From Mycobacterium sp. HUMS_12744610 (GTDB taxonomy: Bacteria; Actinomycetota; Actinomycetes; Mycobacteriales; Mycobacteriaceae): DNA of 64,000 nucleotides. The notes below the pieces were generated by a model. That model had not been told where the DNA came from. It was given only the letters and a program-made list of their open reading frames with translations, and did no database searches. How positions within the stretch are numbered: position 1 is the stretch's first letter; each line of letters opens with the position of its first letter. The stretch covers positions 4,030,001-4,094,000 of the forward strand of contig NZ_JBGEDP010000001.1 in assembly GCF_041206865.1 (NCBI RefSeq). The letters are read 5' to 3'. Positions 46,849 through 52,368 of the stretch are shown here, piece by piece. The position numbers were made by a program, and so were the translations under genes.

Positions 46849-48138
46849 GTGACGGCAGCTGACTCGACCCGAACCGGCTGGGGTGACCGGATCCTGACCG
46901 CTTTTCGTCCCCGCACCGGCGCGCCCGGCGCGGCGGCGGTCGTGCGATCGGCGTTGTGGCCGGTGGCCATCCTGTCGGTGCTGCACCGCAGCATCCCGCT
47001 TTCCCTCAACGGCAACATCACCGACGACTTCAAGCCGGTGTACCGGGCGGTGCTTAACTTCCGGCACGGCTGGGACATCTACAACGAGCACTTCGACTAC
47101 GTCGACCCGCACTACCTGTACCCGCCCGGCGGCACGCTGCTGATGGCGCCGTTCGGATACCTTTCCTTCACGCCGTCGCGCTACCTGTTCATCCTGATCA
47201 ACACCGTGGCCATCCTGATCGCCTGGTACCTGCTGCTGCGGATGTTCAAGTTCACCCTGTCCTCGGTGGCCGCACCCGCCCTGCTGACGGCCATGTTCGC
47301 CACCGAGACCGTGACCAGCACGCTGGTGTTCACCAACATCAACGGCTGCGTCCTGTTGGCGGAAATCCTGTTCCTGCGCTGGCTGCTGGACGGCCGGTTC
47401 AGCCGGCAGTGGTGGGCCGGTGTCGCCATCGGCCTGACGCTCACGCTCAAACCGCTGCTGGGACCGTTGCTGTTGCTGCCGCTGCTGAACCGGCAGTGGC
47501 GCGCGCTGGTGCCGGCCTTCGCCATCCCCGTGGTGATCAACGCGGCGGCGTGGCCGTTGGTGAGCGACCCGATGGACTTCCTCACCCGCACGGTGCCCTA
47601 CATCCTGGGCACCCGCGACTACTTCAACAGCTCCATCGAGGGCAACGGCGTGTACTTCGGCCTGCCCGCCTGGCTGATCTTGTTCATGCGGATCCTGTTC
47701 ACGCTGCTGGCGATCGGCGCCCTGTGGCTGCTGTACCGCTACTACCGCACCCGCGACCAACTGTTCTGGTTCACCAGCTCGACGGGCGTGCTACTGCTGT
47801 GGTCGTGGCTGGTGCTGTCGCTGGCCCAGGGCTACTACTCGATGATGCTGTTCCCGTTCCTGATGACTGTGGTGCTGCCCAACTCGCTGATCCGCAACTG
47901 GCCGGCGTGGCTGGGCATCTACGGCTTCCTGACGCTGGACGACTGGCTGATCTACAAGTGGATGCGGTACGGCCGCGCGCTGCATTACCTGAAGATCACC
48001 TACGGCTGGTCGCTGCTGCTGATCGTGGCGTTCACCGTGCTGTACTTCCGCTACCTGGACGCCAAGGCCGAGGGCCGGCTGGACGACGGGATCGACCCCG
48101 CCTGGTTACCGGCCGGCCGCGCTACCGTTGACTCATGA
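46849..48138 (+). CDS. aftC: Alpha-(1,3)-arabinofuranosyltransferase AftC
   Basis: A 429-residue polytopic GT87-type (DUF2029) glycosyltransferase with about ten membrane helices. The acidic motif of GT-C enzymes is in NITDDFKPVYRAV near residue 58. A second conserved loop is HFDYVDPHYLYPPGGTLLMA. AftC adds alpha-1,3 branches to arabinogalactan and lipoarabinomannan arabinan using decaprenylphosphoryl arabinose at the periplasmic face. GTG 46849 gives the expected length (433 residues in M. tuberculosis). Its stop overlaps the msrB ATG. Confidence 0.92.
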   Translation: MTAADSTRTGWGDRILTAFRPRTGAPGAAAVVRSALWPVAILSVLHRSIPLSLNGNITDDFKPVYRAVLNFRHGWDIYNEHFDYVDPHYLYPPGGTLLMAPFGYLSFTPSRYLFILINTVAILIAWYLLLRMFKFTLSSVAAPALLTAMFATETVTSTLVFTNINGCVLLAEILFLRWLLDGRFSRQWWAGVAIGLTLTLKPLLGPLLLLPLLNRQWRALVPAFAIPVVINAAAWPLVSDPMDFLTRTVPYILGTRDYFNSSIEGNGVYFGLPAWLILFMRILFTLLAIGALWLLYRYYRTRDQLFWFTSSTGVLLLWSWLVLSLAQGYYSMMLFPFLMTVVLPNSLIRNWPAWLGIYGFLTLDDWLIYKWMRYGRALHYLKITYGWSLLLIVAFTVLYFRYLDAKAEGRLDDGIDPAWLPAGRATVDS

Positions 48139-48545
48139 CCAGTCCCAAGGTGCAACTGAGCGACGCCGAGTGGCGGCAGAAACTCACGCGTGAGGAGTTC
48201 GAGGTGCTTCGCCGTGCCGGCACCGAGCGGCCGTTCACGGGCGAATACACCGACACCACCACCGAAGGCATCTACCAATGCCGGGCCTGCGGTGCCGAAT
48301 TGTTCCGCAGCACCGAGAAATTCGAGTCGCACTGCGGCTGGCCGTCGTTCTTCGACCCGTCGAGCTCCGACGCGGTGATCCTGCGTTCCGACACCTCGCT
48401 GGGGATGACCCGCACCGAGGTGCTGTGCGCCACCTGCCACAGCCACCTGGGTCACGTGTTCACCGGTGAGGGCTACCCGACGCCCACCGACCAGCGCTAC
48501 TGCATCAACTCCATCTCGCTGCGCCTGGTCCCGACGGGCTCATAG
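48135..48545 (+). CDS. msrB: Peptide-methionine (R)-S-oxide reductase MsrB
   Basis: A 136-residue SelR-domain enzyme that repairs methionine-R-sulfoxide. Two CxxC pairs bind zinc (YQCRACGAELF and LCATCHSHLGH). The catalytic Cys is in RYCINSISLRL near the C-terminus. WPSFF is the conserved substrate pocket. ATG 48135 overlaps the aftC stop (ATGA). Orthologue of Rv2674. Confidence 0.95.
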   Translation: MTSPKVQLSDAEWRQKLTREEFEVLRRAGTERPFTGEYTDTTTEGIYQCRACGAELFRSTEKFESHCGWPSFFDPSSSDAVILRSDTSLGMTRTEVLCATCHSHLGHVFTGEGYPTPTDQRYCINSISLRLVPTGS

Positions 48546-48608
48546 CCGGGCCCCAGCCTCGCGACACATAACCAGCTGCGACGACACGCCTATGCTCAAC
48601 GCAACGGT

Positions 48609-49457
48609 TTATATCTCGCGGCATCCGCGACGGACGAGCGCGTCGCGCACCCGCCGCACGACGTCCTGCGGCTTGTCCTCGGCGATCACCCGGACGACGA
48701 TCCAGGCGAGCTCCTGCAGCTTGCGTGAGCGCCACTGGTCTCGGGCGTACTGCCGGCGGTCGGACCGATGCCGGTCACCGTCGTACTCGGCGGCTACTTT
48801 GTATCTCTCCCAGCCCATGTCGAGCACGCCGACCAATCGCCAGTGGTCATGCACCGGAATCTGGGTCGTCGGAGCCGACAACCCGGCATCGATCAGCAGA
48901 AGACGCAGCCAGGTCTCCTTGGGCGACGCGGCACCAGGGTCGACGAGCGGAAGCGCCGCGCGTAACCGCCGCAGGCCCCGCGCACCGCGGTACCGAATGG
49001 CCAGCACTGACACCTCCCCGACGTCGAAAGGCGTCGCGCGCATCAGGGCGTCGAGCCGCGCCACAGCCTCGCCCCTGCGTAGTTGTCTGGCCAGGTCGAA
49101 CGCCGTCCTCGCTAGGGTGGTCACCGGTAAACCGGCGACGAGGGTGACCTCATCCGGCCGGACACGCTGATTGCGCGTGACCACTCCGTCCGGAGCGTGC
49201 TGGTTACGCCAGATCAACTCGACGGGCACGTCGTCGTCGATCCAATTCGAGCCGTGCAACGCCGCCGCGGCGAGCCCGGCCACGACGCCGCGCCGGCCCG
49301 ACCACAGCCACGCCGCACGGGAACGCATACGCAGCGACGGCGCGGAATGATGCGGCAGGTAGACATCGGGGTAGATGGCCTGGAAATCGGTGCGCAATCG
49401 GTACGGGCTCAGCCGCCCCTGCCGCACCGCGTCACTGCCGACAAACACCTCGTCCAC
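48609..49457 (-). CDS. DUF559/AbiEi-like protein with C-terminal endonuclease-like domain
   Basis: A 282-residue protein. The N-terminal part resembles AbiEi-type winged-helix proteins (VRQGRLSPYRLRTDFQAIYP then DVYLPHH, and VTTLARTAFDLARQLR). The C-terminal part has the DUF559 restriction-endonuclease-like core: LVGVLDMGWERYKVAAEYDG, then DRHRSDRRQYARDQWRSRKL, where Asp, Glu-Tyr-Asp and Lys-type residues match the PD-(D/E)xK plan. GTG 49457 gives the usual start (V/M-DEVF-x-G). Not part of the M. tuberculosis block. It is enclosed by inverted repeats and may have moved in as a unit. The role is unknown. Confidence 0.75.
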   Translation of the reverse strand: MDEVFVGSDAVRQGRLSPYRLRTDFQAIYPDVYLPHHSAPSLRMRSRAAWLWSGRRGVVAGLAAAALHGSNWIDDDVPVELIWRNQHAPDGVVTRNQRVRPDEVTLVAGLPVTTLARTAFDLARQLRRGEAVARLDALMRATPFDVGEVSVLAIRYRGARGLRRLRAALPLVDPGAASPKETWLRLLLIDAGLSAPTTQIPVHDHWRLVGVLDMGWERYKVAAEYDGDRHRSDRRQYARDQWRSRKLQELAWIVVRVIAEDKPQDVVRRVRDALVRRGCREI

Positions 49458-49499
49458 TCGTGGGAAGACGCATTTACGACGCCCCAGGATCCCCGGGAC

Positions 49500-49544
49500 A
49501 TAACTCGTTGCGACCCGCGTCGGCGTGTCGTCGCAACGAGTTAT
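49500..49544. terminator. Strong 15-bp stem hairpin between Rv2675c-like and DUF559 genes
   Basis: ATAACTCGTTGCGAC (49500-49514) pairs perfectly with its complement at 49530-49544 across a 15-nt loop. It sits 25 nt beyond the end of the Rv2675c-like gene and 43 nt before the DUF559 start, so it may end the hem operon transcript. It is also part of the flanking repeat. No T-run follows. Confidence 0.5.
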
Positions 49545-49569
49545 GTGTCGCGACAAGCCAGGGCGCAGA

Positions 49570-52368
<2,799 letters not shown>

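Follow-up and report, generated by a model that had tools for sequence, protein, structure and literature searches.

In the genome of Mycobacterium sp. HUMS_12744610, a single minus-strand gene (48609-49457) occupies the gap between the convergent neighbours msrB and a methyltransferase-like gene, with a long repeat at each of its ends. This layout raises the question of what ties the gene to its repeats: a selfish element, a regulatory circuit, a defence system or chance. The window, i.e., the whole 64,000-nt stretch of DNA that was analysed, corresponds to C1:4030001-4094000 of the 6.4-Mb genome.

The locus and its nuclease

The following features were recognised in the window (coordinates, strand, description):
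48135-48545, plus strand: msrB, neighbour
48558-48622, plus strand: decayed class A hairpin on the left (downstream) side, in inverted orientation to the upstream hairpin
48609-49457, minus strand: nuclease gene, 282 aa, GTG start at 49457, TAA stop
48621-48926, minus strand: Vsr/EDxHD-like, putatively catalytic domain, residues 178-279
48939-49457, minus strand: AbiEi-like N-terminal part, residues 1-173
49458-49489, minus strand: spacer from the upstream hairpin to the start codon
49490-49554, minus strand: right (upstream) class A hairpin with a perfect 17-bp inner repeat
49570-50322, minus strand: methyltransferase-like gene, neighbour

The loop motif CGACACGCC of the left hairpin is on the plus strand, and the loop motif of the right hairpin is oriented as the nuclease gene, whose stop codon (48609-48611) falls within the left hairpin. 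The gene does not start inside the repeat but at the GTG at 49457; of 102 loci, at least 80% keep the TG of a start codon there. In the spacer of many homologous loci (less clearly at 49458-49489), a pattern resembling a promoter, TGTCGG...CAnnAT, was seen by eye, so that the upstream hairpin would precede the transcript. No AbiEii toxin gene was found beside the nuclease in the stretch of the window read, the gene standing alone between its hairpins.

The encoded protein combines an AbiEi-like N-terminal half with a C-terminal domain resembling the Vsr/EDxHD homing endonucleases (AlphaFold pLDDT 93.5). The top fold matches of the model were AbiEi (6y8q) and I-Bth0305I (3r3p), together with Vsr (1cw0, 1vsr) and restriction enzymes; these are Foldseek ranks looked at again with VIA-align, and folds outside those ranks are possible. 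The Pfam scan of 35 members returned MTES_1575, DUF559 and AbiEi_1 only, with no match to the HUH tyrosine transposase (Transposase_17). The sequence search of the PDB gave nothing (best E 0.7), the NCBIfam search gave nothing relevant, and the C-terminal domain of a paralogue matched the defence proteins PDC-S37 and Hhe weakly. The closest named homologues belong to Mycobacterium and allied genera, and each of the 118 sampled genomes of the genus contained homologues (1 to 17 matches at E <= 1e-10). The dN/dS of the gene (0.15-0.26) points to purifying selection. The description of an endonuclease-like DUF559/AbiEi-like gene in an earlier note on this DNA was confirmed: it is an MTES_1575/DUF559 and AbiEi-like gene bracketed by its own repeats.

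The arms of the repeat (48559-48621 and 49491-49553) are 63 nt long each and 78% complementary, with 869 nt between them. The right arm contains a perfect 17-bp inverted repeat around 15 nt and folded as DNA far better than its shuffled versions (z -4.4, 0/200 as good); the left arm taken alone folded no better than chance (z -0.78, 42/200). The left arm is nevertheless the right-arm hairpin in decayed form; it is alignable to the right arm and to two solo copies elsewhere in the genome, and the covariance model scored it at 68.9 bits and the right arm at 75.1 bits, both arms being in the training set. The appearance of 63-nt inverted arms arises because each hairpin is itself palindromic. The inverted repeats reported to bracket the gene are therefore real, but their units measure 63-65 bp (57-65 bp across hairpins generally) and each arm is a hairpin and probably not a transposon end.

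The exact 14-bp part of the repeat, TCGCGACACATAAC, is present in both arms, as the earlier note had it, but is a local feature: in the 6.4-Mb genome it is confined to the two arms, with one further site at one mismatch. As a genome-wide or mobile tag it was rejected, since at two mismatches or fewer the 14-mer matched 15 times in the whole genome and its reversed control 16 times. Three two-mismatch sites (L004, L007 and L012, at C1:254939, 1587566 and 4471249) represent one segment, identical over the stretch compared, which is probably a repetitive element with no relation to the hairpins. No Rfam match was obtained in six loci. Two paralogues fit neither of the hairpin models R1 and R2 used below: L019 has 62-nt inverted arms that are 92% alike, and L020 a strong hairpin in one flank and a short match in the opposite flank.

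Hairpins at homologous loci

Independently of any model, stems with a score of at least 12 were found in the upstream flank of 49 of the 112 nuclease loci, in the downstream flank of 43 and in both flanks of 22, compared to 1 and 0 in shifted control flanks (n=102). With the models R1 and R2, a hairpin was located within 230 bp of the gene at 77 of 85 loci (73 upstream, 62 downstream, 58 both), the training hairpins having been drawn from 43 of those 85 loci, and no match was present beside the gene at the other eight; the other 445 kb of the 85 loci held one clear and two weak matches, and one L017 match that overlaps the end of the gene was scored as distant for that reason. In the loci with an R1/R2 search, the upstream hairpin ended 33-35 bp (quartiles) before the start codon, and its loop orientation was uniform in 60 of the 61 readable loci. 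Among the 46 loci with both hairpins readable (8 further loci were ambiguous), the pair was direct in 36 and inverted in 10, the inverted ones all belonging to class A.

Nucleases of other genera, 43-50% identical, were accompanied by stems as well: of 20 loci, 11 had a stem scoring at least 12 in the upstream flank and 14 in the downstream flank, nine of them having one in each, compared to 1 of 39 control flanks. The stems beside these nucleases include short, terminator-like ones and others of the same 56-65-bp build, several of the latter with loops like CTCGGCCGATG. The idea that the repeats recur at other DUF559 loci was thus upheld for the hairpin class and its sister classes, both in the genus and in other genera, and failed for the 14-mer itself, which is local.

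Stem pairing is maintained by selection through compensatory change: in class B (45 hairpins) both sides had changed in 20 of 23 pairs with a covariation of 0.62 vs 0.06-0.16 for slid pairings, and in class A (31 hairpins) both sides had changed in 16 of 23 pairs with a covariation of 0.28 vs 0.02-0.10. The most conserved parts of the hairpins are the outer bases (CGA/TCG) and the loop, the latter in class B partly by construction, because most class B hairpins were picked by loop pattern.

The hairpin classes were compared with a nuclease tree of 112 rows, built by a quick method with class labels given by hand and carrying a long-branch warning. A clade of 44 rows included 36 class A loci and no B, and a clade of 51 rows all 44 class B loci and no A; three further A loci grouped with classes C and E in a third clade, and the A locus L064 lay outside. 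Hairpin class changed 19 times on this tree vs 54.6 times in shuffles, and one chromosomal site (a cluster of 21 loci) was occupied by 6 class A and 14 class B units. Stems were similar between close nucleases from separate sites (36 pairs, 0/2000 permutations) in a test with a 0.8 cut that was designed after the all-pairs correlation table was known; over all pairs, the correlation of nuclease and stem distance was not clearly beyond chance (rho -0.115, null sd 0.07). The hairpin is a good candidate for the recognition site of the encoded protein, a role the earlier note had put forward.

Hairpin numbers per genome were related to the nucleases with counts typed by hand, E values taken by exponent, both-strand matches possibly doubled and phylogeny uncorrected: the number of class A hairpins followed the nearness of the genome's best nuclease to the window nuclease (rho 0.56), and all 16 genomes with a best nuclease at E <1e-119 carried class A (median 15 matches vs 0.5); the number of class B hairpins showed no relation to the nearness of the best nuclease (rho 0.085). 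Statistics of the same kind outside the genus gave no association of class B with nuclease presence at E <= 1e-10 (18/22 vs 88/119, p 0.59) and a p of 0.003 at 1e-50, a cut chosen afterwards.

Solo hairpins and turnover of their slots

Class B hairpins were located at 13 places in this genome (E < 1e-7), of which 11 are solo and the other two flank a nuclease copy that is broken (L018). Two class A hairpins are likewise solo. According to crude gene calls, eight of 13 solos do not overlap a called gene, and several sit between convergent genes. Within the genus, class B was present in 115 and class A in 67 of 118 genomes, four of them with at least 45 class B matches; outside the genus, class B was found in 22 of 141 genomes. 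In another genome, three class B hairpins that differ in their stems and are mixed in orientation were seen within 245 bp (L321 128-372; G004 C1:4413477-4413721), a layout like that of a BIME cluster.

The msrB slot was readable in 21 of 30 loci. Eight of these contained a full unit, with the nuclease reversed in two (L168, L187), and in L180 a hairpin and a C-terminal remnant were left. One solo class A hairpin, two half-decayed A hairpins (by eye) and three solo class B hairpins were also present, and six slots were without an R1/R2 hairpin, other palindromes being visible by eye at L166 and L170. The slot is therefore empty or otherwise filled in related species; the earlier note had named clean empty sites in relatives as a sign of mobility. 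The slot of the solo L131 (29 of 30 loci read, by eye) was occupied by other hairpin families or, depending on the species, by no hairpin at all. The families seen there were unlike A and B (L205; L200, L201, L204, L207 and L208; L199), and the class diversity is accordingly larger.

Eight solos of this genome were compared with G165, the closest relative found. G165 was without the hairpin at three of the eight, L130 and L141 (flanks 91-96% alike) and L136 (poorer flanks), shared the solos L135, L137, L148 and L150, and had a truncated L134. The L130 slot was filled with a class B hairpin of a different stem in G100 and with an L020-type hairpin in G051; the L141 slot contained longer inserts in both of these genomes, without a nuclease match. 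No target duplication was seen at L130 and L141, where the junctions were resolved roughly and the direction of gain or loss was not polarised. In L130 (1500-1562) the hairpin of this genome apparently includes the stop codon of the gene on its left, and the hairpin-free G165 has a different stop codon just past the site. At L135, L137 and L150, the shared solo and its spacer were, by eye, apparently more conserved relative to G165 than the adjacent coding ends, which looks like selection, exchange or co-option.

Among the 53 nuclease pairs with an identity of at least 85%, 49 had both flanks in common and four had one. Inheritance is mostly vertical and movement rare; the interpretation given in the earlier note is in part supported.

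Explanations of the gene-hairpin association

We incline to the view that the locus is one unit of a family-wide selfish repeat system, made up of an AbiEi + Vsr/EDxHD nuclease and its cognate ~60-bp hairpins. In the best reading, the nuclease would be hairpin-directed and would maintain and spread its cognate hairpins, with both cleavage and mobility inferred. The system is supported by the enrichment of hairpins beside the nucleases, the match of class and clade, the selection on pairing, the dispersal of solos, the turnover of slots, the relation of class A numbers to the nearest nuclease, the flanked nucleases of other genera and the purifying selection on the gene; the mostly vertical inheritance, the lack of a target duplication, the weak all-distance correlation and the lack of a class B-nuclease association outside the genus count against it. 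The protein, perhaps as a dimer, may bind the cognate palindrome as duplex, cruciform or single strand, recognising the loop motif, certain bases of the stem and the conserved bases at its outer end. AbiEi binds inverted repeats, the I-Bth0305I dimer binds nearly 60 bp (PMC3943268; structure 3r3p), and the hairpins measure 57-65 bp. The nuclease would then nick or cut at the hairpin, and repair might copy hairpins into other intergenic sites and, rarely, the whole hairpin-gene-hairpin unit to a new site; nuclease genes losing their function would leave relics and solo hairpins behind.

Among known systems, the REPtron consists, in the accessible portions of PMC2817692 and PMC3733652, of a RAYT gene between palindromic REP repeats of 20-40 bp with a GTAG head. 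Measured against this description, the present system is similar in having a nuclease gene between two palindromic repeats, dispersed intergenic copies, compensatory change, apparent co-evolution of repeat and enzyme and repeat clusters (here L321). It differs in that the enzyme is Vsr/EDxHD-like with no HUH transposase match, the hairpins are 57-65 bp long, a conserved loop and CGA/TCG outer bases replace the GTAG/GTGG head, and the orientation is mostly direct, whereas REP flanks are described as always inverted. Since three defining features of a REPtron are absent, the locus was not filed as one. Unlike I-Bth0305I, as far as its source describes it, the gene involves no intron or intein and lies between two whole putative targets instead of splitting one. 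Unlike the Vsr mismatch endonuclease, the protein is an AbiEi-like fusion with many copies per genome beside hairpins. From the AbiEi antitoxin (6y8q; available part of PMC7319586) it differs by its fused nuclease domain and the dispersed repeats, and from the AbiE type IV toxin-antitoxin by the lack of an AbiEii toxin beside the nuclease in the window stretch read. The M. tuberculosis stem-loop families Myt-1 (72 nt, 75 members), Myt-8 and Myt-9 are likewise short repeated mycobacterial stem-loops with no role assigned, and no nuclease link is given for them in the part of PMC2267715 at hand; compared by description only, they may be the same repeats as these hairpins. No link of DUF559/MTES_1575 nucleases to hairpins was found in the open-access literature searched. 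It is perhaps an even call whether the AbiEi-Vsr/EDxHD fusions make up a new, HUH-unrelated class of selfish, hairpin-directed nucleases that spreads ~60-bp hairpins through the genomes of this family and occasionally re-homes its own gene between two of them, as a convergent counterpart of REP/RAYT.

The main rival, which we regard as rather unlikely, is that the hairpins are operators and terminators of a resident AbiEi-type autorepressor, which would bind the inverted repeat near its promoter and repress itself, the gene-end hairpins being kept as terminators and the nuclease domain serving another purpose. AbiEi antitoxins are described as binding inverted repeats in their own promoter (PMC7319586, in part), the fixed spacing of the upstream hairpin, with the promoter-like pattern between it and the start, is also compatible with a regulatory role, and eight of 13 solos lie outside the (crudely) called genes, several between convergent genes. 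Autoregulation, however, gives no reason for a second hairpin downstream, for dispersed hairpins of one and the same class, for hairpin class following nuclease clade across sites or for the presence of unrelated families in one slot.

It is considerably less probable that the nuclease attacks foreign or abnormal DNA, with the hairpins as a trigger, off-switch or self mark. The AbiEi-like half, the fold match to Vsr and restriction enzymes and the weak matches of a paralogue's C-terminal domain to PDC-S37 and Hhe agree with such a defence system, but dispersed cognate hairpins and slot turnover would not be expected of it, and among the loci read neither a toxin partner nor defence genes came to notice. 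Just as improbable is a non-autonomous TIR transposon or MITE moved by another transposase, the layout suggested in the earlier note. The inverted arms here and in L019 have that appearance; against it, the ends also occur singly and are direct in most loci, no target duplication was seen at L130/L141 (junctions rough), and the hairpin classes match the nucleases. Ordinary terminator-like stem-loops, near these genes by chance, are the least credible explanation: the hairpins are indeed intergenic and close to gene ends, and mycobacterial terminators often lack a U-tract, but the enrichment beside nucleases, the match of class and clade and the copies upstream of the promoter region speak against it.

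If the selfish repeat system is real, REP-like systems would have evolved twice, on two different nuclease folds, and the co-evolution of palindrome and enzyme would become testable. It would also give a role to the DUF559/MTES_1575-type genes and to intergenic hairpins that can be mistaken for terminators. The R1 and R2 models allow mobile intergenic DNA to be traced in a medically important family.
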